This document shows, piece by piece, positions 85 through 47,126 of a stretch of 64,000 nucleotides of DNA. Each line of letters opens with the position of its first letter. Position 1 is the stretch's first letter. This stretch comes from a virus, in the IMG/VR virus record IMGVR_UViG_3300035099_000047, positions 62,001 through 126,000 of that record; one strand, given 5' to 3'. The translations under genes were made by a program, and so were the position numbers. The notes below the pieces were generated by a model. It saw only the letters and a list, made by a program, of their open reading frames with translations, did no database searches and was not told the origin of the DNA.

Positions 85-1536
85 TTATTTGAAGATTTCT
101 GGCTGGTTCAACGCCAACCGAACCAACTGGGAACCCAAGTCAGCCAATGCATCGTAATACTTTTGACTCAGGTGATCACTCTCGTAGTGGTGAGCGAACT
201 CATGAATGAGTAAACTGTTTAACTCATTGCTGATGCCCTGATCGAAAAATCTGTGCCCAAGACGCCCCAGGTTGAATGTCAAATGGCCGTTGCCATAGGT
301 TGCCCCATAAGGCCAAGCCACCTCAGAGGCTATGTCCACACAAACCTCTTGACCGAGCAACTCGTGGGCAATTCGCTTGGTATAGGCAGCGACCCCTCGC
401 ATCCCACTAGTCCACCTGTTTTCTGGTAATAGCTTGAGTGGAGTACCATTGGGAGAGTAGGGCTTGGGGCTGGGTGTAACCTTGCCGGCCGGAGGAATTA
501 GTCCAGCCTGTTTAATGTTTTGCCACTCCGCCCCAGTCAAGCTCCTTCCATACACAACTGGGCGACCTTCAGCCTGGCTGCGCTTGTTGGCTTCAGGGTC
601 CGTAGGATCAAAAGCAACTGCATTTTCCCCAAATCGCAAAGTCACGGCAGTCTTGAGCGCTTTGGGGTCTACCCGCTTATCCCCACAAGCTTCCCGCACC
701 CAAGTTTGAGAGGCATCCGAGTCCGTGATCAAATGGTGAGTAGCATTCAACACAGCCACCCTGATAGCTTGCAAATAGCTAGGGGTGACGTTATCACGGT
801 CCATGTTGAGAGGCACCTTTTGTTGCACATCCACATGGAAACGGTCTCCGGTCTCCACCACTGGAATGCCCATTTCGTACAAAGAGGCTTTCTCACCAAG
901 CTTTGGTTCATACACATTTACCACGGTCTTGCGAACTGTGGGCTTCATCACCCCATCCCCGCTTGCGACCACAGTAGGCAAAGCAGCCTCAAAGCTGGTC
1001 ACTGCCTTGGGTCGCTCCAGCTGGACCCCGTTGATCGTGGTAGCAATCCTAACCGGAGCGATCAGATGTTGTGCCGATCGAATGATCTCTTCCACTTCCG
1101 ACTTGGTCAGAGGCATTACCACCTCAAACCAGCTGCCTGAAGCTCTGCAACAATTGGAGACCAACCGGGTGCCCTTCTCAGTGAACTCCACCGTACCCTT
1201 GGTGGTTTCCAACCGAGCGGACTTGGCCAACGCCAACACCAGCTTCTCCCCAATGTTGAAGCGGCCTCGCTGTTGAGCATTGGTCTTCTTACGACTCTCT
1301 GCAAACAGCGTGTAAGCGTCCCGTAGGTCATTGAACCCATTGGGATCGTCGTCTTCAATTGCAATCACGGCATGCTTATGGCTACCTGCGACCATTTGTG
1401 CTGTCACGTCCACTTGAGTCACATTCTGATCCCAGGCATTTTGCAACAGTTCGTACAGCACAAATGCCTTGGGGCGGCTGGCTACCAGCTTGGCTAGCCC
1501 TACCTTATCTACTATCAACCAATTGTTCACTCCCAT
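85..1536 (-). CDS. GHKL-type ATPase with C-terminal HExxH zincin-like domain
   Basis: The 483-residue protein begins with a Bergerat-fold ATPase (HSP90/histidine kinase/MutL superfamily). The N-box ELLQNAWDQ is at about residues 29-37, an acidic EDDDPNGF segment at 60-67 and a G-box-like GRFNIGEKLVLAL at 90-102. The C-terminus carries HEFAHH at about 445-450, an HExxH zinc-protease motif, with further histidines just downstream. Coupling of an ATP-driven clamp to a peptidase is inferred; the family fold assignments are by motif only. The start has a good ribosome site (AAAGGAG) and a strong promoter upstream at 1561-1589. It is the last gene before the left-edge promoter. Role in the phage unknown; candidates are chaperone-protease or anti-defence protein. 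Confidence 0.72.
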   Translation of the reverse strand: MGVNNWLIVDKVGLAKLVASRPKAFVLYELLQNAWDQNVTQVDVTAQMVAGSHKHAVIAIEDDDPNGFNDLRDAYTLFAESRKKTNAQQRGRFNIGEKLVLALAKSARLETTKGTVEFTEKGTRLVSNCCRASGSWFEVVMPLTKSEVEEIIRSAQHLIAPVRIATTINGVQLERPKAVTSFEAALPTVVASGDGVMKPTVRKTVVNVYEPKLGEKASLYEMGIPVVETGDRFHVDVQQKVPLNMDRDNVTPSYLQAIRVAVLNATHHLITDSDASQTWVREACGDKRVDPKALKTAVTLRFGENAVAFDPTDPEANKRSQAEGRPVVYGRSLTGAEWQNIKQAGLIPPAGKVTPSPKPYSPNGTPLKLLPENRWTSGMRGVAAYTKRIAHELLGQEVCVDIASEVAWPYGATYGNGHLTFNLGRLGHRFFDQGISNELNSLLIHEFAHHYESDHLSQKYYDALADLGSQLVRLALNQPEIFK

Positions 1537-1560
1537 CTCCTTTTGCCTTACAACAACGTT

Positions 1561-1614
1561 ATTATACTATATCGGCTAATTGAGGTCAAGGGCTTTCCTC
1601 AAAAATCCTGAAAA
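1561..1614 (-). promoter_or_regulatory. sigma-70-type promoter with conserved upstream element
   Basis: TTGACC at 1589-1584, 17-nt spacer, TATAAT at 1566-1561, directly ahead of the GHKL/zincin gene (start 1536). The upstream block TTTTCAGGATTT at 1614-1603 is 14 nt before the -35, as in the three sister promoters. Confidence 0.75.
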
Positions 1615-1619
1615 TAATC

Positions 1620-1823
1620 TCAACTCAACTCATGCCGCCTCAGTGCATCCCGAAGTGCCCACCCCTCCAATTCCATAATCTCCTTCAAAAACGGTTCGGA
1701 TCGCCTCAATCCTCTCAAGTCCTCCTCAGCCTCTCCCCTGGTATCGTAAGGTCCCATGTCAGGATCGGATAGATACTCCACAATCCACCAACCATCCGAT
1801 CGCTTCTCTAGTCTACCGTTCAT
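1620..1823 (-). CDS. small hypothetical protein, 67 aa
   Basis: Not recognised. It has an N-terminal DGWWIVEYL segment followed by GPYDTRGEAEEDL, which resembles the short GTYDTRAGAE motif of the 53-residue protein at 42188-42349, so the two may share a small alpha/beta fold. The start overlaps the stop of the preceding gene by 4 nt (ATGA), indicating translational coupling in one transcript from the promoter at 2892-2920. No signal peptide or membrane segment. Confidence 0.6.
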   Translation of the reverse strand: MNGRLEKRSDGWWIVEYLSDPDMGPYDTRGEAEEDLRGLRRSEPFLKEIMELEGWALRDALRRHELS

Positions 1824-2869
1824 GGTCCTTTTACCTTGTAATGCTTGACCACCTTACCCAAGTTCTCGCTCCCACGCGCGTGCTGGGGAATCCAGAACCT
1901 GCCGTGCAACTTTCCAAATAGTCCCGGCGAATCCTCTCCATACGTGCGAAAGTGACCCCGGCAAATATGAAGTGCTTTTTTAAGACCTTCTTGATCCATT
2001 CTACCCTCACTCCGTAGGATGGTCCGCATGGGTTTCAGTTCCAGCACTTTGTACTGAATTTCGGGCAACCGCTTACGTCGCAACCATCGGTGATCAGTAA
2101 CGGCTTCACCCTTTGTTACTACCACATTCTTGCAGTGCATGAAACTCAATGTGAGCAACGCAATATGGGTGGGACTGAAAAGTACGGCTGGATTGGGCTC
2201 TATTACCCCTTTCCGCACAGAAAAGGTTCCAGGTCCGGCTTGAAACCAGTGAACCGGAGACCCTTGCGAATCCACTCCCACAACTGAAAAAGCCCCAGTC
2301 CAAGCTGGCCGTCCCAAACAAGGTGGTTGAAACAAAGCCACCCAATAAGACATCACCATCACCCATTTGGATCGGTTCACCATGTTATCAAATCTTCGCT
2401 CTAACTCTGGGGACCAACTATCTCTCATATTCGGTCCACCAGCCACGTTCTTCAAGAAACTGATATATTCGTTTTTAGAACCTTCTTCAGGGGCCTTGAA
2501 TGGAATACACACCATACCCGCCTGCCCCGCTGGCTCCTCTAACCATTCCCCCTTAATCAACACCCGCAGGGGGTTGTTCCATTCTATTGTAAACACTGGA
2601 AAAGGTGGTGCAATACAAGGGAATGCTGAGGGCTCGTCCTCATTACCAACGATCCGCCATTCCTCTTGGGGGCTAGCCGCATACATCTCCGCGATCTCAT
2701 CAGCGATGATCACCGGAAAACCCGCAGCCATCTCAGCCTCGGCTTTGCTGCGAACCAAGACATCGTCCATTCGCATCCCCACGTTAGCCCAAGAGGGCTG
2801 ATACTGCTCATGCAGTAAAGGCAAAGACCTCATCCGTTCAATCAACCTAAGTGGTTTTTCACTACTCAC
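1820..2869 (-). CDS. conserved phage hypothetical protein, 349 aa
   Basis: The C-terminal region contains CRGHFRTYGEDSPGLFGK, then FWIPQHARGS and a final VVKHYKV. From memory this block recurs in hypothetical proteins of phages and actinobacteria, without assigned function. The rest is a soluble mixed alpha/beta protein with several Trp-rich stretches and no transmembrane segment. First gene of a two-gene unit with the 67-residue protein downstream; promoter at 2892-2920. Function unknown; an early accessory or takeover role is only a guess from its distance to the structural genes. Confidence 0.65.
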   Translation of the reverse strand: MSSEKPLRLIERMRSLPLLHEQYQPSWANVGMRMDDVLVRSKAEAEMAAGFPVIIADEIAEMYAASPQEEWRIVGNEDEPSAFPCIAPPFPVFTIEWNNPLRVLIKGEWLEEPAGQAGMVCIPFKAPEEGSKNEYISFLKNVAGGPNMRDSWSPELERRFDNMVNRSKWVMVMSYWVALFQPPCLGRPAWTGAFSVVGVDSQGSPVHWFQAGPGTFSVRKGVIEPNPAVLFSPTHIALLTLSFMHCKNVVVTKGEAVTDHRWLRRKRLPEIQYKVLELKPMRTILRSEGRMDQEGLKKALHICRGHFRTYGEDSPGLFGKLHGRFWIPQHARGSENLGKVVKHYKVKGP

Positions 2870-2891
2870 AACAACCTCCTACTTTGTGAAA

Positions 2892-2945
2892 CACTTACGG
2901 ATATTGGCCCTTGAGGTCAATAGACCCTTGCAAAGATTCTGAAAA
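2892..2945 (-). promoter_or_regulatory. promoter with weak -10 and conserved upstream element
   Basis: TTGACC at 2920-2915 with a 17-nt spacer to TAAGTG at 2897-2892, a poor -10. The block TTTTCAGAATCTT at 2945-2933 lies 13 nt upstream of the -35. Drives the 349-residue gene starting at 2869. The weak -10 suggests more dependence on an activator than in the sister promoters. Confidence 0.55.
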
Positions 2946-2949
2946 GTTT

Positions 2950-3282
2950 TCATGGGTCCCCAGCCAAAATGGCTTGGTAATCAGCTTCCAAGGTTACGTC
3001 TTGGACAATCCGATAACTTACCTCTTTGGGGGGTTTGCTGTTCCGTTGTAATTTGCGAATCCAACCAAGACGGATTGCTTTCCTACGCACCTCACATACG
3101 TATCCGGGGGGTACCAACCCCACTTTGAATCCTCCCCATAGCTCTACTGGCCCTATGAACTGCTGAATTGCATAGGGGCTGGCCACCAATCCCAACTGCC
3201 CCAATGCCTTTCGTATTGCCGCAGCTACATAGCCACATCTTACTACCCCTTTTGACCTTACTACCTCTTTGAAAGGGTTCAC
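2950..3282 (-). CDS. hypothetical protein, GTG start, 110 aa
   Basis: Not recognised. I chose the GTG at 3282 because it overlaps the stop of the upstream gene as GTGA, the coupling used throughout this operon; the open frame extends further upstream but only through the neighbour's coding sequence. The protein has a small positively charged N-terminus and a YVAAAIRKAL helix; overall basic and soluble. Last gene of the four-gene unit 3903-2950. Confidence 0.55.
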   Translation of the reverse strand: MNPFKEVVRSKGVVRCGYVAAAIRKALGQLGLVASPYAIQQFIGPVELWGGFKVGLVPPGYVCEVRRKAIRLGWIRKLQRNSKPPKEVSYRIVQDVTLEADYQAILAGDP

Positions 3283-3491
3283 TTTTTCGTCTCCTCCGTC
3301 TCCTGTTTGACAAAGCTCTGACAGCAGTCGCACTTGCACTCGCGAGGCCCATCATTGATCTGGTTACTCTGGTAGAAGTACACAGGACCATGATATTCAA
3401 CGTCCTGCACAAACCTTCGACCGCTGAAGCATCGGAACAAGCTCTCTCGGACTTCCATCCGTTTGCCATTGAGTTCAATTTCGAGCTTCAC
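3279..3491 (-). CDS. small protein with cysteine pair cluster, 70 aa
   Basis: Contains CKCDCC near the C-terminus, a possible metal-binding patch, and an N-terminal beta-like MKLEIELNGKRMEV segment. Starts with an ATGA overlap at 3491 and ends with GTGA overlap onto the next gene. Function unknown. Confidence 0.55.
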   Translation of the reverse strand: MKLEIELNGKRMEVRESLFRCFSGRRFVQDVEYHGPVYFYQSNQINDGPRECKCDCCQSFVKQETEETKK

Positions 3492-3700
3492 GATCGCCTC
3501 CTTTCTTCCCTAAATTCCTTAAATGAGCGTAACATTTCCAACGACAACCTCAATTGAGAAACCACAATGCCACAATCTCCTCTACCTTCCAGGTAAGGAA
3601 TTACCAACTCAAGAGCTTCAATCTGTCTCTCCAGTTGTTCATCATCCCATTGGGACGCCTTGGACAACTTACCGGCGGACTCCATCTGCTTGCTGTTCAT
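3488..3700 (-). CDS. small helical hypothetical protein, 70 aa
   Basis: Highly charged and predicted helical by eye (QLERQIEALELVIPYLEG then QLRLSLEMLRSFKEF). It could form a short coiled coil. ATGA overlaps at both ends place it in a tightly coupled four-gene operon. No family recognised. Confidence 0.55.
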   Translation of the reverse strand: MNSKQMESAGKLSKASQWDDEQLERQIEALELVIPYLEGRGDCGIVVSQLRLSLEMLRSFKEFREERRRS

Positions 3701-3903
3701 GGTTTCTTCCCCTCGCTACTCAAGTTGTCGGGACAATAATCTGCCCTTTCATCGGGGGAAGAATACTTGCTGAGGCTCCACCCGTGAGAGTGATACCGCC
3801 TGTAAGTTTGGCAAACCTCACACCATTCTTCCCCATCAAGAACGACATGAAGGTGAGACCCGCAAGTGTGACACCTTCCACAATGAGTTTTTCCCATTTT
3901 CAT
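3697..3903 (-). CDS. small zinc-ribbon-like protein, 68 aa
   Basis: Two cysteine pairs, CGRCHTC near residues 8-14 and CEVC near 28-31, plus histidines, fit a one-zinc ribbon. It is the first gene of the unit and lies immediately after the promoter at 3929-3957. Small zinc-ribbon proteins in phage early regions often bind nucleic acid or host enzymes, but no specific function can be read here. Confidence 0.6.
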   Translation of the reverse strand: MKMGKTHCGRCHTCGSHLHVVLDGEEWCEVCQTYRRYHSHGWSLSKYSSPDERADYCPDNLSSEGKKP

Positions 3904-6460: not shown

Positions 6461-8155
6461 TTAGAACATGAGTACGTGATTAAACTGGAAAACCCAATCA
6501 CTCGACTTACTCAATGCTCCAAATGTTCTCCTCGCCACCAATGTGTTGTCTCCACACACCAATCCAGCCTCGCTGATAGCGAACCCATTAGCTTCCCCTT
6601 CCAAAATATAAGCAGTGATCAACACACTGGTTGTGCTTGGGAATTCAAACATAGTAATAGGTTTCACTAGCACTACAGTCTCCAATGCTGCATCATTCAC
6701 TGTAGGATTTACAGGTTCGCTAGGATCACCTGGTACATGGCCACCTGTGTTATGCACGAATACCCCAGCTGTCAACGCGAAATTGTGATATTTTTCCACT
6801 TCCAAACAGTACACATCTTCCACATAATCCAAGCGTTTCACTGAAACCACAGTGTGGTTATAAAAAGCTAAAGCTTCACTGGTTGGAGAGGAATGGACCA
6901 TTTTGCCAATTGATTTCAAATACCGAGATCCTTCATCCCATTGAGTGACCGGATCGAACCCATTTTCTATCAGCAGCTTTCTAGCAACAGCAATTTTTCC
7001 CACCATCTGCTTCCGGCGGGAGTCATTGTCTGAATTCACAAACAGAATGGTCTTTTTAGCAGCCATTCTGCTAGCTTTTGATTTACCCCGATTCATGTGG
7101 AAATTGGGATCTTTATTCAGTCTGGTCATCGTCAAAGAGGACCTTTTAGACCGTATCATCCTGGCGTTACGCGCTTGTGGGTTGTCAGAATTGTTAATCC
7201 ACTCGTTGTAATCTGAGATATTTTTAACACTAATTTCTTTCATTTTATCATAGTTTTCACTCCAACTTTTCAAGTTGCGAGCAGTAAGAATGCTGGAGGC
7301 ATTGTTCCTATGGAACGCCCTGTGAAAACACCTAAACAAAACGGTCAAATTCGTAGGATCGTTGTTCCTGTGGTCAAAGTTTTTGTGGTGCACCACAAGT
7401 TTGCAACCTTCACAACCATCGACATGGTTAGAAGTGCATCTAGCTCCCAATTCATGAACCACCATCCAATGAGTAGTCAACCATTTCATGGTTGCGGGAG
7501 ACAAAAAGACTTCGTACCCTTTGTTATCTTCCCTATACAACGGCATGAGACTGTCACCTGGGGACAGTGACTCTGCATTTTTATAAAAACCATCCCTCAT
7601 CATCCACGGGTGGTTTAACGTGCATCGAACCACCTTAATGTTCCCTAGATAATCTCGAATCGTGACTTCCACTAAATTAGCACCCTTTTGAGTTAAAAAA
7701 GGTCTTTTGGCTTTACCAGGCACGACTCTACCTCGTTTTACATCATAGGAATACACCCAAAACTCGTCGCGATAGTTTAGGAGTTCCTCAAAAGACCTCT
7801 CTGTACCATCCAACAATGATACTTTTGTATCTTTGGTAAAGCAACCAAAAGCCATTCGGCTCACGAACTTGGTTGCAGTGCTATCCCCCACAACTAAGTG
7901 ACTCAGTTGCGTCTTGAGCCGAGTCAAGGCCAAGTTGTTGCCTTTGTAAACTCGTTCAATTTTGCCATCTGGCACCTCAACTCGAACCCTCTCCAATTGC
8001 CCGGTTTCAGCATTGATACGAGTGACTTGTTGAGGCCGGTACGATCCTGCCCGTCGCACCAATATGGTTTGTTCACCATGGACTTCACTCACTACGGACT
8101 TGGTAAACATGGGATTGCTCCTTATTACAGATTGGTTAGCTTGTTGTTTGGTCAA
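6461..8155 (-). CDS. small tail/virion structural protein interrupted by an HNH intein
   Basis: The precursor is 564 aa. N-extein residues 1-104 and C-extein residues 470-564 splice to about 199 aa. The C-extein end (NGFAISEAGLVCGDNTLVA then RRTFGALSKSSDWVFQFN) matches a pattern I know from phage tail-associated structural proteins. The intein occupies residues 105-469, starting at Cys105 and ending VHN before Thr470. It lies at the downstream end of the tail-tip cluster, 9 nt after the radical SAM gene. Exact structural role unknown. Confidence 0.7.
   Translation of the reverse strand: MTKQQANQSVIRSNPMFTKSVVSEVHGEQTILVRRAGSYRPQQVTRINAETGQLERVRVEVPDGKIERVYKGNNLALTRLKTQLSHLVVGDSTATKFVSRMAFGCFTKDTKVSLLDGTERSFEELLNYRDEFWVYSYDVKRGRVVPGKAKRPFLTQKGANLVEVTIRDYLGNIKVVRCTLNHPWMMRDGFYKNAESLSPGDSLMPLYREDNKGYEVFLSPATMKWLTTHWMVVHELGARCTSNHVDGCEGCKLVVHHKNFDHRNNDPTNLTVLFRCFHRAFHRNNASSILTARNLKSWSENYDKMKEISVKNISDYNEWINNSDNPQARNARMIRSKRSSLTMTRLNKDPNFHMNRGKSKASRMAAKKTILFVNSDNDSRRKQMVGKIAVARKLLIENGFDPVTQWDEGSRYLKSIGKMVHSSPTSEALAFYNHTVVSVKRLDYVEDVYCLEVEKYHNFALTAGVFVHNTGGHVPGDPSEPVNPTVNDAALETVVLVKPITMFEFPSTTSVLITAYILEGEANGFAISEAGLVCGDNTLVARRTFGALSKSSDWVFQFNHVLMF
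6749..7843 (-). mobile_element. intein with HNH endonuclease domain
   Basis: Hint domain of about 365 residues. Block A begins CFTKDTKVSLLDGTER, block B has TLNHPWMM (TxxH) and the end is HNFALTAGVFVHN with the canonical penultimate His-Asn, followed by Thr as +1 nucleophile. The centre contains LVVHHKNFDHRNNDPTNL plus later paired histidines, the HNH fold seen in homing inteins, so it can probably move into intein-less alleles. Block sequences are close to those of the other three inteins here, indicating a shared recent ancestor. Confidence 0.85.
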
Positions 8156-8164
8156 TATGGTTTG

Positions 8165-10705
8165 TTAAGGCCCAACCGGGGTAGTTGGGCATGGTTGTTT
8201 ACCATCTTCTCTGACTAACGCCGTCACGGGTATGTTCTGAGACCAACGATGTACGGGTACCCCTGCTGGGTCGAGTTTGATTTCCGACCCCGGCAAATAG
8301 CTACACAGTTGGCAATTCTTGCCTCTCTGTTGAGACGGATCCTTGACGTACTTGGCTATGGTCTGCTTGGGCAGTTCGCTGAGGATGTGCAAGGCACTTT
8401 CAATCCAGAGACTTTTCAGCACACACTGAGCCGGATCTGGAGTATGGATGTCTCGACCAGATGCTAAACTGTCCTCGCGGCAATTCCCCACCACCACCCC
8501 AGCAGATAAAACAAAGTTGTGACAAGGATGGTCTATAACCACACAGTACACGTCTTGCTTTTCTTCCAACCATTTAACAGAAATCACTCTGTGGTTTACA
8601 AGGTGTCCATCCTTTCCCTTCTTGCTTTCATAAAAAGGCATCAAGCTATCCCCACACTTCAATTCACAAGATTTGGTCATAGTTCCATCCGACATCATCC
8701 ATTCATGATCTGGAGTACACTTGACTTTTTCACCATTGTCCAACCCCACTTCCATCAAGGGCATGTTCTCCCTAGTTTTTCTAACCTCTCCCTGAGTAAC
8801 TATGAATTCTTTCCACCCTGGATGATAAGAGTAAAACCATTGTTTACCCAAACCTACCAATTCCGCAATTGGGTGGTTTGTCCCATCTACCATTTTGACT
8901 CCAGTATCCCCAGTAAAACAACCAGAACCGCACACCCAACGGACGGGACATTTCATACAATCCTTGCGCTGATAACCACGGTTATCCAACCAAGGAGCTC
9001 TCAATTCCTCATCAATACCAGTAGACAAATCCCCGATTTTGGAATATCCCTCCCGATGGCATGCAAAAATCATACCTTTGCCGTTGACCGAAAGATAACC
9101 TCGACTCGCACCACAATTTCGTACAAACACTCCAGCAGTCAAGGCGAAATTGTGACAATCGTGTTGAATTTGAACGCAATACGTATCGTGGAGCCCTGTT
9201 ACAAATTTGACTGATATCACTTTGTGGTTGGATTGAACCACTTTACAGTATTTGGTATGGGTTACTTGACTCCCTTTGAAACAATCTGTACTCTCCTCAA
9301 GAACTTTCCCATACCATGGCATCAAGCTGTCACCCGGTTGCAATTGATCAGCCCGCTTGTAAGTGCCATCCCTCATCATCCATAGATGATCAGGAGTGCA
9401 CTTGACCCTTTGACCATTGTCCAATTCCACCTCCAACAAAGACCTACCTTCCCCGGTTTTCACTCCAACACCTTTGGTAGATATGATCTCTCCGTTACAA
9501 ACACTGTAAAACCAGTGCTCTTGACCTACAATGGACTCCAAAGTCCTCTCAGTACCATCCAACAAAGACACTTTGGTATCTCCTGAGAAGCACTCACTTG
9601 CACTATGGATACTCCAAAACATGCGTTCAATGCTCTTGTGTACGTTGTGCCAACGTGGAGTCTTATCTGCCTTAGCCCGTTCTATCCACCAATCAGCGGC
9701 ATCGAGGTATTCATCCTCAAATCGGTCCCATGCCTCCTCTTCCTTGATTTCCAATCCCCGGTTTTTCAAAGGACTATCATGGCTCAGGGCCACTGGTTCC
9801 ACGCTTACCCAATTTGCACAACCGTCATCGCACAACTGATTCAAGTAATCAAGCCGCTCCCGGATAGTTTCCACACTGTTAGCTGGAAACGTGCTGCGCA
9901 GGGTGTTGCTGCTAACTAGCCTGGTGCCCTTGAGCAGCTTCAAACCCTTCATTACCTTTTGCCAGCTGCTTCGTCCATTTGCATAGCGGCGCATATGGTC
10001 TTGGCTCTTTTGAGTCCCGTCTATGGAACAGATCAAGCTGTATCCATGATCATTTAGAAAAGCAACTCGTTCGGGAGTGAACAAGGTAGTATTTGTGGTA
10101 ACATGCAGTCCAGGCCTCTGCTTACCCAATCCCAAACAATTTTCACAAACGCTTCCCCCTACCCGACCAGATCCCCCGCAGGACCGACAAACCTGGCCGA
10201 ATTGCTTAGCCAAATGTTCCACATACTCTGTCACTTTGAGTATCAATGGCCAATTGGTCAAGGGCTCCCCCCCAAAGAACCCAACAGTAAAATGCTGGCG
10301 AACGTTTACCAAATCATCAATGGCCCGTTTGGCCATCTCAAAGGTCATTACATCTCCATCGTAGCCCTTATGTGGGTACATGCTCACAAAGCAATACTTG
10401 CACGACAAATTGCACGCATGTGTTGCTTCAAGGACCAAATTGCCCACCTTTGGTTCTGGTGCCCCTCCGGCACGAAACACTGGCTTATAACGTGCCATTA
10501 CATATGGGCTGGGTGGGTGATCCCTGAGTTGCAAGTAATCCTCAAACGAATCCACCTGCAACAATGCCAAACTGTTGCTATCAAATGCAAACTGTTTGTG
10601 TCGCTTTGGAATCTCAATGTAGATAAGCTCCGGTCGTTCATCCTCACGCAAGTCCTGGCAAGGTACACGGGGATTCAACAACCCGTTCAAAATGCGGTAA
10701 GCCAT
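8165..10705 (-). CDS. radical SAM/SPASM enzyme interrupted by two mini-inteins
   Basis: Precursor 846 aa, spliced form about 541 aa. The radical SAM [4Fe-4S] motif CNLSCKYC is at residues 98-105 and the SAM-binding GGEP at 145-148. Residues 173-194 carry two CxxCxGxG units (CRSCGGSG, CENCLGLG), a DnaJ-type zinc element not usual in this family. After splicing, all seven SPASM cysteines are present: C531, then G-x4-C549, CxxCx5CxxxC (583, 586, 592, 742) and a final C761. This layout is that of peptide/protein maturases (sactionine, anaerobic sulfatase and related enzymes). Its neighbours upstream encode three giant Cys-rich virion proteins, the obvious candidate substrates. Substrate and chemistry are inferred. 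Confidence 0.85.
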   Translation of the reverse strand: MAYRILNGLLNPRVPCQDLREDERPELIYIEIPKRHKQFAFDSNSLALLQVDSFEDYLQLRDHPPSPYVMARYKPVFRAGGAPEPKVGNLVLEATHACNLSCKYCFVSMYPHKGYDGDVMTFEMAKRAIDDLVNVRQHFTVGFFGGEPLTNWPLILKVTEYVEHLAKQFGQVCRSCGGSGRVGGSVCENCLGLGKQRPGLHVTTNTTLFTPERVAFLNDHGYSLICSIDGTQKSQDHMRRYANGRSSWQKVMKGLKLLKGTRLVSSNTLRSTFPANSVETIRERLDYLNQLCDDGCANWVSVEPVALSHDSPLKNRGLEIKEEEAWDRFEDEYLDAADWWIERAKADKTPRWHNVHKSIERMFWSIHSASECFSGDTKVSLLDGTERTLESIVGQEHWFYSVCNGEIISTKGVGVKTGEGRSLLEVELDNGQRVKCTPDHLWMMRDGTYKRADQLQPGDSLMPWYGKVLEESTDCFKGSQVTHTKYCKVVQSNHKVISVKFVTGLHDTYCVQIQHDCHNFALTAGVFVRNCGASRGYLSVNGKGMIFACHREGYSKIGDLSTGIDEELRAPWLDNRGYQRKDCMKCPVRWVCGSGCFTGDTGVKMVDGTNHPIAELVGLGKQWFYSYHPGWKEFIVTQGEVRKTRENMPLMEVGLDNGEKVKCTPDHEWMMSDGTMTKSCELKCGDSLMPFYESKKGKDGHLVNHRVISVKWLEEKQDVYCVVIDHPCHNFVLSAGVVVGNCREDSLASGRDIHTPDPAQCVLKSLWIESALHILSELPKQTIAKYVKDPSQQRGKNCQLCSYLPGSEIKLDPAGVPVHRWSQNIPVTALVREDGKQPCPTTPVGP
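8483..8920 (-). mobile_element. mini-intein B in the SPASM domain
   Basis: Residues 596-741 (146 aa), no endonuclease. Starts CFTGDTGVKMVDGT, block B TPDHEWMM, ends HNFVLSAGVVVGN. The penultimate residue is Gly instead of His. It is inserted inside CGSG|C so that the +1 nucleophile Cys742 is itself a SPASM cluster ligand. Confidence 0.85.
9116..9592 (-). mobile_element. mini-intein A in the SPASM domain
   Basis: Residues 372-530 (159 aa), no endonuclease. Starts CFSGDTKVSLLDGTER, block B TPDHLWMM, ends HNFALTAGVFVRN, with Arg in place of the penultimate His. The +1 residue Cys531 is the first SPASM cysteine (CGASRGY). Close similarity to intein B and to the full-size intein at 6749-7843 suggests duplication and loss of the nuclease. 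Confidence 0.85.
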
Positions 10706-11060: not shown

Positions 11061-11311
11061 GGTTCTTTATGCTCCAAGGCTTCGGCCTTTTGACAACGCA
11101 GGCAATCATACATTCTAGCGGGTTCATGACCATACCGACTACAAAGAAATACTCGGCCTCCATCAGCCCGACAACAAGGTGATCTAGTGGTTCTACCCGT
11201 GTCAATACGATAGTTGCAATGGAATACCAGTTCCTTCAACCGGTTGCGCAACACTTCGTTTTGAGCAATGTTGAGCCCTGGCAACAGTTCTCGATTACGG
11301 TGAAGTCTCAT
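10970..11311 (-). CDS. small cysteine-containing protein, 113 aa
   Basis: Starts with an ATGA overlap on the Cys-rich protein gene upstream. Cysteine groups PCCRADGG, FLCSRYGHEPARMYDCLRC fit a zinc ribbon. Lying between a Cys-repeat protein and the radical SAM enzyme, it might assist that system, for example as a partner or iron-sulfur accessory, but nothing in the sequence proves this. The last 30 residues overlap the next gene's start. Confidence 0.5.
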   Translation of the reverse strand: MRLHRNRELLPGLNIAQNEVLRNRLKELVFHCNYRIDTGRTTRSPCCRADGGRVFLCSRYGHEPARMYDCLRCQKAEALEHKEPWIISLAQRSSGWGLSSYSRDQVLRSLSAI

Positions 11312-13692
11312 GCCACTATCCCACTAGCGCACCCAACACCTTGACATTGGGATTCGCAAGGCACTGATTCACATACAGTTTCACAAGGTTGTTCCCTTCC
11401 TTCTTCACAACACAACTGGCAACAGAACTCGCAACCTCCCTGCTTATTGGCTACACAACCCGCTTCACAAATGGCCTCACAACCACCTTGGGCTTCGCAG
11501 GCCGCTTGGCACTGAGTTTGACATTTGTCAGTACAGCTAGCGGTGCAACCACTTGTGCAACTGGCTTTGCAAACGCATTCACAACACACTTGACAGCCTC
11601 CCGGTGCACCGGTGCAGCTGGTCTGACAACCAGCAGTGGCTGTGCATTTTATTTGGCACCCAGCCACCATGCAAGGTTCCTGGCAAATAGCCATACACTC
11701 ACTTTGGCACCCTCCAGTGCATCCACTGGTGCAACCTACGATAGCACAAAGCGTTTGACACCCACTGCTTTGACATGGGTTTTGACATATCGTCATGCAA
11801 CCTTCCATGCACTGGCCACCCTGACAACCCACTGTACAATTCTTCTGACAATCGGTTTCGCAGCTTTGACATCCCTCACTCTCGCACTTTGATGCCTCAC
11901 ACCAACTTTCACAATGACCTCCTTCGCAAGATCCCTTCTCGCAAAAATCTTCACAACCCCCTTCACAACTGCCTTTTTCACACCAGCTTTCGCAATAAAT
12001 TGCACATTGAAACTGACAACCACCTACCTCACAATCGTTTTCACAGCTACCAGCTTCACATTGCAGTTCACACCCTGCAGCTTCGCAACCTTCTTCACAC
12101 CCTATCTCGCAACCCTCTTCGCATCCACACACACACGAATCTTGGCAGCATGCTTCGCAATCAGTTTCACAATTGTTTTGGCAAGCACTCTGGCAGTTGA
12201 ACTCACAATCGTTTTGACATCCAGTCGTGCAGAAATCTTCACAATTGCCTTCACAACTGCCTGTACAACCATATTCGCAATCACCTTCACAACCATTTTC
12301 GCAAAATGTTTGACAATTAGCTCCCTCACAAGTATCCTGGCAATAATTCTGACATTTGTTCTCACAACTGCCTGCACACGCTTCTTGGCAGACGAACTCG
12401 CAATCCGTTTGACAGTGAATCTCACACATCAACTCACAATTTGATTCGCAGGAGCCCAAACCTTGACACTTGTCTTCGCAACCCTTCTCACAAAAGCTTT
12501 CACAAGTGACTTGACACCCTTGAGTGCACGTGGTGATGGTTTCCAACCGGTCGCTAGCCCCGGTCAACAACTCCCGAAACCTGCTCCGCATGGAAACGCC
12601 ACTGTAAGAATCCGTTACTTCAATAGCAACTTCTCTCTTGGACATCAACTGCAACTTGCGAACCGGTATCACATGAATGGGTCGCTCGTCGGCCAAGTAC
12701 TGGTCCAACACAGCCATAGCCTCAGCAAAAGGCAAAGCCTCTCCAATACCTGGATACTTTGTTTCAACCTCCTTCAGATAGGAATTGGTTTGGTGGTAAC
12801 AAGTACGAACCCCGGACAACAAAGCATTTGTAGCATGTGCCTTTTCTACTAACACACTCAATAACGAGTTGGTTGAATGATACTGAGTGCTTTCACCCTT
12901 CAAATCAGCATCGGTGCTATGAGAAACCCTTGTAGAATATAACAGGGCATCTGTCGTGTGACTTTCAGTGATTTCACGAGCACTAAGAAAAGCATCTGTT
13001 GTGTGAGATCTGGTTGACTTTTTAAGGTAAGCATCTGTGGTATGTGTTTTGGTTACAGCTAATCCTTTGATATAAGCATCGGTATTATGGCCAATAGTGA
13101 TAACGTCTGGACTGATCACCTCATACTCTATTGCAACCTGGAGGTCATCATATTGTGTTTCCAGTGTTACTTCTGTTGTACCGCTCCACGTCGGATCAGT
13201 TACACAGTTGACCCAATTGCGAATCGAAAGGCCAATGCGATTCCACGCACCACCAGGGATTTCAGAAGGAAGGGGCTTCAGCCCTCCCCCTCCAATGGTC
13301 CACCAACCATATGTTCGGCCATAAATATCTAAACCAACAAGAAGTTGCTGTGCTTCATCTTCCGTATCCTGCCAAAGGTAAACATTTCCTACCCTATAAA
13401 GTTTAGACGAACAAAGTGGGAAGTCGTCAGCAATCGGAGCCCTCACAGCCAACCCAACAACACTGATTGCAGTGACAACACTATTTTTTGGGATACCAAA
13501 CAACTGGCTCCATGTCCCCAATACACGCCACCCTTCGGAGCCAGTTATATTACCCCGACCTTCCAAATCCATGTGCGTGGTAAGGGACCCTTGCGAGAGA
13601 TTACCATTGTACGACCACCCGCCCCTGGCAGTTGGCTCCCAACTCTCAGGGTCGTTTTCCCAACGCCACCATTTGGTTATTCTAATAGCCAC
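11308..13692 (-). CDS. Cys-repeat virion protein with jellyroll-like head, 794 aa
   Basis: Residues 1 to about 190 form a beta-rich domain (WRVLGTWSQLFGIPKNSVV) that is paralogous to an internal domain of the protein at 17387-21499. Residues about 195-310 hold eight copies of a short repeat, core HTTDAxLK, known from other phage tail fibres. From about residue 390 to the end the chain is a tetrad repeat with Cys every fourth residue, typically C-Q/E-x-x, interrupted by short Gly-rich spacers. No signal peptide. Position in the tail operon suggests a tail-tip adhesin. Likely substrate of the radical SAM enzyme encoded just downstream (inference). Confidence 0.7.
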   Translation of the reverse strand: MAIRITKWWRWENDPESWEPTARGGWSYNGNLSQGSLTTHMDLEGRGNITGSEGWRVLGTWSQLFGIPKNSVVTAISVVGLAVRAPIADDFPLCSSKLYRVGNVYLWQDTEDEAQQLLVGLDIYGRTYGWWTIGGGGLKPLPSEIPGGAWNRIGLSIRNWVNCVTDPTWSGTTEVTLETQYDDLQVAIEYEVISPDVITIGHNTDAYIKGLAVTKTHTTDAYLKKSTRSHTTDAFLSAREITESHTTDALLYSTRVSHSTDADLKGESTQYHSTNSLLSVLVEKAHATNALLSGVRTCYHQTNSYLKEVETKYPGIGEALPFAEAMAVLDQYLADERPIHVIPVRKLQLMSKREVAIEVTDSYSGVSMRSRFRELLTGASDRLETITTCTQGCQVTCESFCEKGCEDKCQGLGSCESNCELMCEIHCQTDCEFVCQEACAGSCENKCQNYCQDTCEGANCQTFCENGCEGDCEYGCTGSCEGNCEDFCTTGCQNDCEFNCQSACQNNCETDCEACCQDSCVCGCEEGCEIGCEEGCEAAGCELQCEAGSCENDCEVGGCQFQCAIYCESWCEKGSCEGGCEDFCEKGSCEGGHCESWCEASKCESEGCQSCETDCQKNCTVGCQGGQCMEGCMTICQNPCQSSGCQTLCAIVGCTSGCTGGCQSECMAICQEPCMVAGCQIKCTATAGCQTSCTGAPGGCQVCCECVCKASCTSGCTASCTDKCQTQCQAACEAQGGCEAICEAGCVANKQGGCEFCCQLCCEEGREQPCETVCESVPCESQCQGVGCASGIVA

Positions 13693-13706
13693 TTACACCA
13701 TCCCCA

Positions 13707-15221
13707 CTAAAAATTAGGGAACACAGCCACTCTTGCGGCTTTGTAAGTGTGTGTACCATTTTTATTCAAACTGTAATCCCCCATTTCGTTAGGTTCGTGC
13801 TTGTACAATTCGGAGACTGAATACTTACCATCTGAACGGTACTTCAACTTCTTATTGATCCCAAACACGGTACCATGCATTTTGTGAAAAGCCAAAGCAT
13901 CAGAGGTGAAAAATCGTATCAAATCATCTGTCCATCCATCATAATAGCTACTCCCCAACAGCTGATTGATAAGGGTCAGATATTCTGTATTGGTAGTGAC
14001 TACATTGTACAGGGCCTTCAATCCGGCTATCAACTCCTCGGTTTCCCCAAATTGTTCCTGTAACATACCCACAATCTGTTTCAAAATAGGCCCCCCTGAT
14101 ACATCCCCAGAAGCCTCCGCATCCTTTATGCGAATAATCAAAGGTAACAAATCATACAACTGGACCCGGGGCCAACGGCCTAGATAGGCTGCAGTGCGAT
14201 GGTACCTGCGTACCTCCCCCTTCAAGTCCGCATCGGCGGTATGCTTTTTCAATTGAAACTTTTGCAAAAGGGCGTCAGCACTGTGAACCTTAGTAATACT
14301 CCAAACCAAATAGCTGCTTGAAAAATGATAATTGGTAACTTCGCCCTTCAAAACTGCATTTGTACAGTGTAATTTTCGACCACCTAATATCAAGGCATCA
14401 GTTGTATGCAATAGAGAAATGGTTTCAGTAGGTGATGCCCAACTCAACCGGCGTGGCATTGCCCAAAGATCAAAGCGCGTGGCTGGATTGTAAAGCGTCC
14501 AGATTTCCGCCGCCGAAAGGGCACGCCCGTAAACCCGCACGTCACGCACCAGACCTCGCCAGAACATCTCGTACGAGCCGTAGTTCAAGGCCCCGACGAA
14601 TCCGTAGTTGCTGGACCACGTATCCGTGGGCATTTGCGCGAGCGTCTTTGAGTTTTTCAACCGTCCGTCGACGTACAGCGACCAGGCGGAATTGTCGAGA
14701 ACGGCCGCAACGTGGTGCCAAACCCCGTCGTTATGCGCGCTCGTCGCAACCAGATTAGTGTCCCATACGCTTATGCCGAGAGCGCCCGGCGGCTGCCACC
14801 GGTCGGTGTTGCCAGCACCAATAATGACCGCGTAGTGTTGGGATGTTACCCCGTAAGAAAACGCCCCGCGGATGTACTCCGACGGACATTCCGTGTAGTT
14901 GACCCAGAGCGAAATCGTTCGCGGCGATGCCCCGAGGGGGAGGCGGGTATCGGGAAAGCGGAACTGATAACTGCCGTCGAATTCCGGCACGAAGCCAAAC
15001 GTGGGATCCGCGTGCCATTTTGCCACCTCCGGCACCATGCTTATGTCAACTGCCCTGCCGTGATTGTCATAAACAATCTCCGGCGCGACACTGCCCGTGC
15101 ATGCCGAGAGCGGCCACCAGGCAATAAGACTGCGTGATTGCAGCGATTCTTGCCGGACTTGCGGTATTCTTGGAGACAACAGGTTGGCGCGGGCCATTGG
15201 GCGGTCCGAGATGACTCCCAT
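13707..15221 (-). CDS. LamG-domain tail protein with gpI-like C-terminus, 504 aa
   Basis: Residues about 27-245 form a LamG/concanavalin-type jellyroll (SLIAWWPLSACTG, GVWHHVAAVLDNSAWSLYVDG, ALSAAEIWTLYNP), a carbohydrate-binding fold. Residues 260-345 carry HTTDA-type repeats. From VQLYDLLPLIIRIKDAEASG to the end it matches the start of the 1370-residue protein, a P2 gpI-like tail domain that links fibres to the baseplate. The LamG-coding DNA (about 14440-15220) is visibly GC-richer than its surroundings, a sign of recent acquisition. Probably a receptor-binding tail protein. Confidence 0.75.
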   Translation of the reverse strand: MGVISDRPMARANLLSPRIPQVRQESLQSRSLIAWWPLSACTGSVAPEIVYDNHGRAVDISMVPEVAKWHADPTFGFVPEFDGSYQFRFPDTRLPLGASPRTISLWVNYTECPSEYIRGAFSYGVTSQHYAVIIGAGNTDRWQPPGALGISVWDTNLVATSAHNDGVWHHVAAVLDNSAWSLYVDGRLKNSKTLAQMPTDTWSSNYGFVGALNYGSYEMFWRGLVRDVRVYGRALSAAEIWTLYNPATRFDLWAMPRRLSWASPTETISLLHTTDALILGGRKLHCTNAVLKGEVTNYHFSSSYLVWSITKVHSADALLQKFQLKKHTADADLKGEVRRYHRTAAYLGRWPRVQLYDLLPLIIRIKDAEASGDVSGGPILKQIVGMLQEQFGETEELIAGLKALYNVVTTNTEYLTLINQLLGSSYYDGWTDDLIRFFTSDALAFHKMHGTVFGINKKLKYRSDGKYSVSELYKHEPNEMGDYSLNKNGTHTYKAARVAVFPNF

Positions 15222-15239
15222 CCATTCCTCCTACCAAAT

Positions 15240-15746
15240 TCAAACGACGTCTTCAGCCAGTGGTACCAAGGTAATGCGATGTGAATCGTCATTGCTTACC
15301 AAAGCCTGTCCCGACTTATTGATGACTACAGGGCAACCATAACGGGCAGGGGGACAAAACTCGAAGACCTCGGTTTGGACCACAGTAGCAGCATCTGCTG
15401 TGAGCACCAGGCAGCCAATAAGCAAAAGCTGTTGCTTCCATTCATCTTCTTCCCCAGCCTTGTAAGGGGAATCCACACCGGTGACTCCACCAGGAAAGGT
15501 TGTGTTATCCCACGAGGCTGCCCAATAAATCTCAATCACGTTGCCAGCCACTGGGGCAACAGCCAGGTTCAATTCGACAGTGACCGCCCAGCGCGGGGCG
15601 AACCGCCCGTTGGCATCCGCCAGATCGCCTTTCTGACCCATCCGCCCGGCCCCGTTGGCCAAGCCAGCCAGGGTGATCGCGTAGTCTCCTCCCGTGGCCT
15701 TCCAAACCTTTGCAGTTCCTTGTTTAACCAGTATTTCTGTAGACAT
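15240..15746 (-). CDS. phage structural protein (tail-fibre associated), 168 aa
   Basis: Contains GNVIEIYWAASWDNTTFPGGVTG, LIGCLVLTADA and YGCPVVINKSGQAL, a pattern I recognise from small virion proteins lying next to fibre genes in many phages, of unknown precise role. No Cys tetrads. It sits between the LamG protein and another small structural gene in the adhesin cluster. Confidence 0.6.
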   Translation of the reverse strand: MSTEILVKQGTAKVWKATGGDYAITLAGLANGAGRMGQKGDLADANGRFAPRWAVTVELNLAVAPVAGNVIEIYWAASWDNTTFPGGVTGVDSPYKAGEEDEWKQQLLLIGCLVLTADAATVVQTEVFEFCPPARYGCPVVINKSGQALVSNDDSHRITLVPLAEDVV

Positions 15747-15781
15747 AGCTCAAACCCAAGGGTTAAAAGTTGAAAGTTGGT

Positions 15782-16210
15782 TCACAAAGAAAGCTTGATA
15801 ATCCCGCTAGCACTCCACTGCAACACAAAGTTTTGGGCCTTCCGGCTCTTCACCATTCCAAAGCCTATGTGACCTATCAGAGGTGAGTCTGCTGGGGTGG
15901 TAACCAGCCGGTACAATACAGCATGAGCGGGGGACACAGTCACCACTGGCCAAATAACATCATCTGCGTCAAACACGCAAGTACCAGCAACTTTGTCCAA
16001 AGTAAAACTACCATTCCTCAACCGTACCCCTCCCGCTGTATAATTGGTACCTGTCACTTCATCGGTTACTATGTCCGACCAATAAACTTGGTTTTTGTAA
16101 TCTGGTATGTATTTGTCACTGAGCAGTGCACACTTGATTATGTTGTTGACCAGCGATATTTGACCATTGGCCATCGCTTTCAAATAATTCAAGAACAATC
16201 CGCAGGTCAT
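15782..16210 (-). CDS. phage structural protein (tail-associated), 142 aa
   Basis: The ATG at 16210 is chosen because AAAGGGGAAGC precedes it; a longer frame would overlap the Cys-repeat gene. The sequence (LYRLVTTPADSPLIGHIGFG and TCVFDADDVIWPVVT) matches a common small phage virion protein that tracks with fibre genes. Beta-rich, soluble, no Cys tetrads. Confidence 0.6.
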   Translation of the reverse strand: MTCGLFLNYLKAMANGQISLVNNIIKCALLSDKYIPDYKNQVYWSDIVTDEVTGTNYTAGGVRLRNGSFTLDKVAGTCVFDADDVIWPVVTVSPAHAVLYRLVTTPADSPLIGHIGFGMVKSRKAQNFVLQWSASGIIKLSL

Positions 16211-16221
16211 AGCTTCCCCTT

Positions 16222-17370
16222 TCACACCTGTTGCTGTTGTTGGCATCGACCTTGACAACCATACTCACAGGCATTCTGACATTCGGTCTCACAAGCAGCT
16301 TGGCATCCTATAGCACAAGCTGTAGTGCAAGTGAGTTGTTGACCTGCTTGGCACTTTTGCTCACAGGCGTAAGCACATCCCGGTATTTGATTTCCTGATT
16401 GACATTTTTGTTCACATTTGGTAGTACAACCCCCTGTTTGAGCTCCCGTTTGACATGATTTTTCACATTGATTTTCACACGAAGTTTCACACGAAGCCTC
16501 ACACCCTCGACGAGGGACTTGATAACTAACTTGGCACACCGTGTTGCAACCAGGGGACTGTCGATGGCTTTGACAAGAAACCTGGCAAGATCTTACACAA
16601 CCTGGCACCTGCCCACTGGCCTCGCAATTAGATTGACAAACACTATCACATCCCAAAAATTGAAGCTTGGATTGGCATTTGGTTTCACATTGCCCCTGAC
16701 AACCCCCTTCGCAGTGGGTTTCACACCTAGCCGTGCAGTTACGTGCCTGATTACCTTGTTGACAACTGACTTCACAAATCTGTTGGCAATCGTATTCACA
16801 AGCTACTTGACATTTATCAGTACACCCCGGGGTTTGGTACCCTTGAGTACAACTCAATTCGCAACTTGTACCACAGCCTGCAGTTTGACTCCCTGATTGA
16901 CAAGTCACCTCACAAGTGTCAGAACAACCAGGGGTTTGACTGCCTTTTTGACAGGTGGTTTGACAAGTGTCTGAGCAGCCGACTGATTGACTCCCTGATT
17001 GGCAAGAAACTTGGCAACGGTCTTGGCAACCTGATTGGCAAGTTGTTTCACACTTCGTGGAGCACCCTTGAGCTTGGTGACCTGCTTGGCAATGAAGTTC
17101 ACACAGGGTCTGACACCCAGATTGACACACCAATTGACAATGAGATTCACAACTGCTTTGGCAAGTGACTTCGCAAGTGGTACCACATCCGGCTACCTGG
17201 TTCCCTGCTTGGCATACGTTTTCGCACAGGTTTTGACAATTAGCTTGGCAAGTCTGTTCGCACTTCGTTTGGCACCCCGCTTGACACCTCAATTCACAAG
17301 CTGAAGTGCAACCAGCGGCTTGATACCCAGCTTGGCAACCCACTTGGCAAGTTTCAGTGCAACCTGGCAT
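16222..17370 (-). CDS. pure Cys-tetrad-repeat protein, 382 aa
   Basis: The whole chain is repeat: runs of C-x3-C with Q or E after most Cys (for example CEVTCQSSCESHC), broken by the spacer x-x-G-x-Q-x-x-G-C. By my count about 75 of 382 residues are Cys. No globular domain, signal peptide or membrane segment. A good ribosome site (GGTAGGAG) precedes the ATG. It lies 16 nt downstream of the 1370-residue Cys-repeat gene. This many thiols would require extensive disulfides, metal/Fe-S binding or enzymatic crosslinking; the radical SAM enzyme in the same cluster makes the last option attractive. I know of no characterised relative. Confidence 0.7.
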   Translation of the reverse strand: MPGCTETCQVGCQAGYQAAGCTSACELRCQAGCQTKCEQTCQANCQNLCENVCQAGNQVAGCGTTCEVTCQSSCESHCQLVCQSGCQTLCELHCQAGHQAQGCSTKCETTCQSGCQDRCQVSCQSGSQSVGCSDTCQTTCQKGSQTPGCSDTCEVTCQSGSQTAGCGTSCELSCTQGYQTPGCTDKCQVACEYDCQQICEVSCQQGNQARNCTARCETHCEGGCQGQCETKCQSKLQFLGCDSVCQSNCEASGQVPGCVRSCQVSCQSHRQSPGCNTVCQVSYQVPRRGCEASCETSCENQCEKSCQTGAQTGGCTTKCEQKCQSGNQIPGCAYACEQKCQAGQQLTCTTACAIGCQAACETECQNACEYGCQGRCQQQQQV

Positions 17371-17386
17371 TTTCAGCTCCTACCTT

Positions 17387-47125: not shown

Positions 47126-47126
47126 A

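Follow-up and report, generated by a model that had tools for sequence, protein, structure and literature searches.

Why would a phage carry a radical SAM/SPASM enzyme whose gene is interrupted twice by inteins, each placed exactly at a cluster cysteine, and do these inteins delay or switch the enzyme? The gene lies in the 64,000-nucleotide stretch analysed here (the window), which is positions 62001-126000 of the 172,227-base virus record IMGVR_UViG_3300035099_000047. Our best explanation, to which we give as a whole a probability of about 0.65, is that the gene encodes a CteB-like maturase, that its two inteins (A and B) splice fast and constitutively, and that its substrates are proteins with Cx3C repeats, in which cysteines recur every four residues. 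The precursor is laid out as follows (Aux I, auxiliary cluster I).

8165-10705, minus strand: radical SAM/SPASM protein precursor, 846 aa, split by inteins A and B (PF04055; 12 relatives)
10391-10414, minus strand: radical SAM motif CNLSCKYC (Cys98, Cys102, Cys105), from the alignment, fitting CX3CX2C
9116-9592, minus strand: intein A, mini-intein, 159 aa (residues 372-530), ending FVRN (PF14890 stretch 379-530, junctions, relatives without the insert)
9113-9115, minus strand: codon of Cys531, the +1 residue of intein A and SPASM Cys 1, an Aux I ligand by published assignment
9059-9061, minus strand: codon of Cys549, SPASM Cys 2 (alignment)
8930-8959, minus strand: SPASM Cys 3-5 (Cys583, Cys586, Cys592; alignment)
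8483-8920, minus strand: intein B, mini-intein, 146 aa (residues 596-741), ending VVGN (second PF14890 stretch, junctions)
8480-8482, minus strand: codon of Cys742, the +1 residue of intein B and SPASM Cys 6, an Aux I ligand by published assignment
8423-8425, minus strand: codon of Cys761, SPASM Cys 7 (alignment)

The first-pass annotation of this DNA had placed two mini-inteins in 8483-9592, and the two ends of this range coincide with the last base of B and the first base of A. The family matches confirm both: Intein_splicing (PF14890) matches the open reading frame (ORF) in two stretches (E 8.2e-26, 91.1 bits for the whole protein, cut-off 35.8), and so does TIGR01445. The junctions, marked here by a slash, read HSASE/CFSGD...GVFVRN/CGASR for A and VCGSG/CFTGD...GVVVGN/CREDS for B. 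Both inteins have Cys at position 1, TPDH as block B (TxxH), HNF in block F, a terminal Asn and Cys at +1. By motif and family criteria they are class 1 inteins, for which the nucleophile role and self-splicing are predicted. The annotation was also right that both have lost the nuclease and the penultimate His. The residue in its place is Arg in A and Gly in B, and no nuclease family occurs among the seven Pfam matches of the ORF, so that A and B, judged from their sequences, are mini-inteins lacking a homing endonuclease domain. Solved inteins gave weak sequence matches, the best for A being a DnaE intein (E 2.4e-4), and residues 42-146 of B align weakly to the Pho RadA intein 2lqm (E 3.4e-5).

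The exact placement of the inteins followed from a MAFFT alignment of the precursor with 12 relatives from other contigs (33-53% identity, with L156 at 53%). Searches for close relatives found none when the N-terminal part of the radical SAM protein alone was the query and only intein relatives when the whole precursor was used; the full-length relatives were obtained via Cx3C-bearing contigs and an alignment. Matches by tblastn in a phage collection were mostly unannotated human faecal scaffolds at 23-33% identity ('Bacteriophage sp.' for 17 of 22 and 24 of 25 records), and four such loci were retrieved and left unused, as was phage Phass-1. None of the 12 relatives has an insert at either intein site. 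When A and B are removed, the exteins fall into register with the relatives with no residue gained or lost: the A joint reads SASE/CGASRGY, compared with SECGAGxGY in the relatives, and the B joint VCGSG/CREDS, compared with VCGGGCREES, or VCGSGCREES in L159. The three radical SAM cysteines and the seven SPASM cysteines are kept in all 13 aligned proteins. The spliced form would carry the SPASM motif CX9-15GX4C-gap-CX2CX5CX3C-gap-C, whose full spacing is also present in 10 of 11 intein-free relatives (L156 has Ala for Gly). MAFFT puts intein B after the conserved Cys; the alignment alone cannot set this boundary because B itself also begins with Cys, and the boundary was therefore taken from the intein motifs. 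With this boundary, the aligned sequences identify SPASM Cys 1 as the +1 residue of A and SPASM Cys 6 as that of B. The fact that every ligand cysteine is kept suggests that the host protein is under selection and hence that the inteins splice.

Which cluster the inteins interrupt can be read from published assignments. For AhbD, C223, C256, C274 and C324 have been proposed as ligands of Aux I, and C312, C315, C321 and C342 as ligands of auxiliary cluster II (PMC10452713). By position, C256, C274 and C324 would correspond to SPASM Cys 1, 2 and 6, and the remaining motif cysteines to Cys 3, 4, 5 and 7. In CteB, Aux I is described as having three Cys ligands and an open site, where a substrate Cys was bound (PMC10452713, PMC6231123, PMC8326336). 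The annotation's claim that the +1 Cys of each intein is a cluster ligand thus holds, as all 12 relatives have Cys there and the published assignments (PMC10452713, PMC6231123) make both of them Aux I ligands. Both inteins therefore break up a single cluster, which is believed to contact the substrate. The claim that the auxiliary clusters cannot form until both inteins have spliced is supported for Aux I, whose ligands, going by the alignments and assignments, would not be presented in their normal context before then. The two ligands had also been called adjacent; they are in fact the first and sixth of the seven SPASM cysteines, although both belong to Aux I by the published assignments. 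Both inteins would thus have to leave before Aux I can form, a two-lock arrangement on one cluster. If two cysteines were drawn at random from the 21 in the exteins, the chance that both are among the seven SPASM cysteines is 0.10, and simple arithmetic gives 3/210 = 0.014 for both falling among the three Aux I cysteines. Inteins favour conserved residues, however, so that placement at Aux I is no proof of a special role.

The enzyme itself has a clear radical SAM match (PF04055, E 9.2e-16, 58.9 bits, cut-off 29.5), and several lines of evidence point to CteB as its closest solved relative. A profile built from 11 intein-free relatives matched CteB (5wgg) with E 3.6e-82; the next match was 8vpo with 3e-33. 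The model of L156 (mean pLDDT confidence score 79.9) also had CteB as its best Foldseek match, with Z 33.4 and a root-mean-square deviation of 2.7 over 398 residues, in a range starting at the first chain residue; the next different protein was ChlB with Z 27.0. The best radical SAM family matches were SCIFF (TIGR03974), PapB (NF047865), nif11 (TIGR04064) and QhpD (TIGR03906). Their models gave 129-135 bits for the intein-split precursor and 150-163 for L156, compared with equivalog cut-offs of 340-519. The CXXX-repeat maturase model TIGR04115 gave 62 bits for the precursor and 63 for L156, with a cut-off of 350. As all of these scores are far below their cut-offs, we assign the enzyme to none of the SCIFF, PapB, nif11 or QhpD families. 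The profile and the model suggest a CteB-like enzyme, of the thioether-forming type, that would work like the SCIFF, PapB, nif11 and QhpD maturases. The protein and its nearest relative, L156, also share an extra zinc-ribbon-like CxxC...CxxC insert (10136-10189 in the window), which is missing from the 11 other aligned relatives; in the window protein, a Pfam search gave a DnaJ-like match with E 0.05.

The neighbourhood of the gene points to a substrate. Family matches identify contractile-tail phage genes in the window (tail sheath, baseplate wedge, head protease and major head protein), and a T4-like portal lies outside it (Portal_T4, E 2.9e-38). Between the baseplate wedge gene and the radical SAM gene, on the same strand as the latter, are three Cx3C-repeat proteins with 303 Cys in total.

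11308-13692, minus strand: Cx3C-repeat protein, 794 aa, 102 Cys, 64 of 101 spacings equal to 4, no PHROG or Pfam match
16222-17370, minus strand: Cx3C-repeat protein, 382 aa, 75 Cys, 59 of 74 spacings equal to 4, no PHROG or Pfam match
17387-21499, minus strand: Cx3C-repeat protein adjoining the baseplate wedge gene, 1370 aa, 126 Cys, 82 of 125 spacings equal to 4

Glu or Gln comes directly after the cysteine in 71, 58 and 81 cases in the 102-, 75- and 126-Cys proteins, respectively, and the largest protein matches phrog_6085, a family of unknown function (E 3.1e-05). A scan of viral contigs for the repeat gave at least 80 loci. Among the matches listed, to which the following counts also refer, a C[QE]xx run occurred within an ORF at 49 loci; the repeat was diverse in 13 of these and not diverse in the other 36. 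The diverse set of 15 consists of these 13 with L095 and L039 added by hand. The controls are 24 of the other 34, which are of low diversity (L038, L046, L050, L052, L053, L056, L078, L096, L100 and L110 were left out). Counting a radical SAM match anywhere in the record, we found one in 12 of the 15 diverse-repeat records (11 over the cut-off) and in 1 of the 24 controls. Fisher's test gives p 1.4e-6, a value that is too small given possible near-copies (L083 and L103 have the same repeat; L095 and L039 are alike). Without the two records added by hand, the figure is 11 of 13 (10 over the cut-off). Approached from the radical SAM side, ORFs in which Cx3C runs comprise 12 or more Cys were present in 19 of the 79 viral loci and in 1 of the 80 genome loci, a comparison biased towards the link, as three of the four query rows came from Cx3C-bearing contigs and several viral loci lie on contigs already seen. 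The association of diverse Cx3C-repeat proteins with radical SAM genes in viral contigs is thus well supported. Together, fold and neighbourhood suggest that Cx3C-repeat proteins of the tail region are modified by the radical SAM enzyme, with a thioether as the putative product. Cx3C proteins were also seen near radical SAM genes of visibly different kinds (window 11308-21499, L035, L065, L074, L086, L091, L095, L152 and L156-L158).

Whether the loss of the penultimate His says anything about splicing speed can be judged from the other inteins of the record. At least seven were found, by searching at the protein and family level and by scanning every piece of the record for motifs. Two of these lie in other proteins of the window.

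6461-8155, minus strand: third-intein protein; the intein (6749-7843, 365 aa) is related, has an HNH match and ends FVHN/T
44849-47152, minus strand: unnamed fourth-intein protein; the intein (45236-46711) has an HNH match and ends FVHN/T

The HNH match in the first of these is to phrog_7545 (E 1.4e-8), and the end of that protein weakly matches a tail-collar fibre family (E 0.09). The intein in the second, 492 aa long, has, besides its HNH match, several motifs that by eye resemble C2H2 zinc fingers. Outside the window, G000 750-3800 encodes a terminase-like protein with one HNH-bearing intein ending FTGN/S. No terminase family matched this protein, only HNH, intein and unrelated models, and its name is our reading of the sequence. 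G000 168348-170840, also outside the window, encodes a portal with two mini-inteins, ending FVKN/T and FTGN/S. The second portal intein is 89% identical to the terminase-like intein over the N-terminal 99 residues and is probably a recent copy of it that has since lost its nuclease. The penultimate His is therefore missing in five of the seven inteins found in the record, including one that bears an HNH match. Four of the seven are nuclease-free, so that nuclease-free inteins, which had been called unusual at this locus, are not so in this phage. In 16 related or intein-bearing records, 7 of them with matches, all 14 distinct intein ends had the penultimate His, a count that leans to His since the motif admitted such ends more freely and some ends were not matched to a whole intein. 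We considered His loss as a marker of nuclease-free inteins, as it was seen in 4 of 5 mini-inteins and 1 of 10 others among 15 inteins compared (Fisher p 0.017), and in 5 of 7 inteins of the record and 0 of 8 in relatives (p 0.007). This idea was dropped: the counts are not independent because A and B are sisters and the portal 2 and terminase-like inteins are closely similar N-terminally, the rows were chosen by hand, and L328, a viral radical SAM intein found later, also lacks the His.

In the mechanism that we propose, two related class 1 mini-inteins cut the SPASM domain just before Cys 1 and Cys 6. In each intein, an N-S shift at Cys1 would be followed by transfer to the +1 Cys, Asn cyclisation and an S-N shift. 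Splicing would free the +1 Cys, and Aux I and the active enzyme would form only afterwards. Most likely both inteins splice constitutively and quickly, and we propose that they persist because their loss needs exact excision from codons that cannot change. The mature enzyme would then, most likely, cross-link or otherwise modify the neighbouring Cx3C-repeat proteins.

Several points weigh against this explanation. The evidence for splicing comes from sequence only, and the substrate is putative. In the AlphaFold model of the precursor, pLDDT is below 50 across most of both inteins, which no other alignment row covers, so that structure adds nothing there. None of the three Cx3C proteins of the window matched a tail family, and their label as tail proteins thus rests on position; two of the three lack any phage-family match. 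Among the matches listed, 3 of the 15 repeat-bearing records had no radical SAM match. Finally, A and B have 5 and 6 Cys, respectively, in the compared part of the splicing domain, where 13 other inteins have 1-6 (mean 3.5), and they share a Cys just before the HNF of block F. These cysteines make redox effects conceivable. Oxidation could form a disulfide with Cys1 or another intein Cys and hold an oxygen-sensitive enzyme unspliced and cluster-free until conditions become reducing. Such a switch has precedents in the M. smegmatis DnaBi1 intein (PMC6195587) and in the P. abyssi MoaA intein, where an N-extein Cys bonds with Cys1 (PMC10663303); MoaA is treated as an AdoMet radical Twitch enzyme (PMC6231123). 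Intein B would fit this scheme, as the N-extein Cys592 sits four residues before its Cys1, but intein A has no Cys near its N-junction (HSASE). The Cys before block F recurs in only one other of the 15 inteins (L313). We know of no role for a cysteine at this position. A and B also have in common a Cys at F:4, which is a common variant according to a 2014 review; at that time, the review adds, no physiological role was known for conditional splicing (PMC4031507). We regard a redox switch as unlikely, although it is the strongest of the alternatives.

The missing His could instead make the last step slow, so that the inteins act as a timer delaying the enzyme until late infection, and the first-pass annotation had likewise raised the possibility of time- or redox-dependent splicing. 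The penultimate His normally assists Asn cyclisation (PMC5050341, PMC4031507), and neither A nor B has one. The published and genomic data do not support the idea that the loss makes splicing slow or conditional. The penultimate His is poorly conserved in mycobacteriophage class 1 inteins, some of which have Gly, Lys or Ser, and the RDF phage intein with Gly splices fast and completely, whereas its His mutant needs more than 5 h for about half (PMC5050341). According to the discussion of the same paper, similar archaeal or chloroplast inteins that were given a His spliced better in some cases, worse in some and the same in others, and the block F His, which A and B keep, can take over the role. 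The portal and terminase-like inteins of the record show the same loss. As His loss is known elsewhere and occurs at several genes of this phage, there is no ground to expect slow splicing, and a timer seems very improbable to us. We give marginally less weight still to the idea that splicing has been lost in at least one of the two inteins, leaving a gene that is dead or yields fragments. The loss of both nuclease and penultimate His could be read as decay, but the frame is open, the catalytic residues are intact, the junctions are exact and all ligand cysteines are conserved.

Returning to fast, constitutive splicing of a CteB-like maturase, a wider reading would be that various kinds of phage share a module for virion maturation, where such an enzyme cross-links Cx3C-repeat tail proteins into thioether-stitched fibres. 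We hold this tentatively, as a possibility that may well prove wrong. Stitching would then start only after both inteins have spliced off Aux I, the substrate-binding cluster of the enzyme. It is improbable that the inteins regulate this cross-linking in a condition-dependent way.

A and B are 48% identical and group together as sisters in the comparison of 15 inteins (support 97/98); the portal 2 and terminase-like inteins form a second pair (100/100). Most likely, A and B descend from one intein that spread within or into the radical SAM gene, with later loss of the nuclease. Cluster cysteines were also hit in other proteins. In the relative L158, the third Cys of CxxxCxxC is the site of an intein from a different lineage, which has a LAGLIDADG match (CNLACSY/C...LCHN/CFV). 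A pattern for this site gave five stretches: L158's contig again, two further viral intein proteins and two non-insertions. L330 (4695-6878) and L328 (632-3337) each have a large intein with a LAGLIDADG match at the third radical SAM Cys, ending VHN/C and SKN/C, respectively; their radical SAM matches reach 35.6 bits and, below the cut-off of 29.5, 27.4 bits. Cluster cysteines are thus repeated intein targets in viral radical SAM proteins, which fits the idea that inteins persist where a codon is not free to change. For the SPASM Cys 6 site, a narrow pattern that cannot establish absence gave two stretches, neither of them radical SAM.

Two further observations concern other parts of the record. 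Of 231 open frames with 80 aa or more, 14 share a motif like FExxVxxLxE near an N-terminal Met (0.2 expected from shuffles; window only, both strands, spurious frames included). These 14 lie on the minus strand at 37830-63260, where the genes for the head maturation protease and the major head protein are also located. The motif is possibly a capsid-targeting signal cut after LxE, presumably in parallel to T4. Outside the window, G000 18785-19957 and 152228-153346 are OrfB_IS605/TnpB-like genes (PF01385, E 1.1e-25 and 4.3e-22).

With an intein at each of two ligands of the same cluster, the precursor is a natural double lock: assembly of Aux I would read out splicing directly, and this could be used to test whether inteins regulate metalloenzymes. 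The inteins at another cluster Cys in L158, L330 and the sub-cut-off L328 make this placement a pattern worth explaining. If true, the tie between radical SAM maturases and Cx3C proteins encoded next to tail genes would represent a new type of modification for virion proteins. At the level of titles and abstracts, with few subscription journals covered, we found no published account of a phage radical SAM module with Cx3C proteins or of SPASM inteins. A Campylobacter phage genome is described as having both inteins and radical SAM, with the inteins that are named there lying in terminase, PhoH and ribonucleotide reductase genes (PMC3322345). In the mycobacteriophages, phage class 1 inteins with a penultimate residue other than His, including that of RDF, occur as they do here; the hosts given in the available text are terminases, nucleases, RDF, a nucleotidyltransferase, methyltransferases, portal and others, and no radical SAM protein is named there (PMC5050341). 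The M. smegmatis DnaB protein likewise contains two inteins, of which the class 3 DnaBi1 is redox-sensitive and the other is not (PMC6195587), whereas both inteins here read as class 1. The P. abyssi MoaA intein also lies inside an oxygen-sensitive enzyme of the radical SAM superfamily, and its splicing is redox-trapped (PMC10663303). That system has one archaeal intein in a Twitch-type enzyme, whereas ours would have two phage mini-inteins at the Aux I ligands of a SPASM domain. On the enzyme side, CteB as SCIFF maturase, the ranthipeptide maturase PapB and QhpD are the best structure and family matches and share the fold and the seven-Cys SPASM motif. The TIGR04115 family, whose cut-off lies far above the scores of the phage enzyme, is named for a CXXX-repeat target. 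Unlike CteB, PapB and QhpD, however, the phage enzyme scores below every curated cut-off and lies beside large Cx3C-repeat proteins rather than a small peptide.

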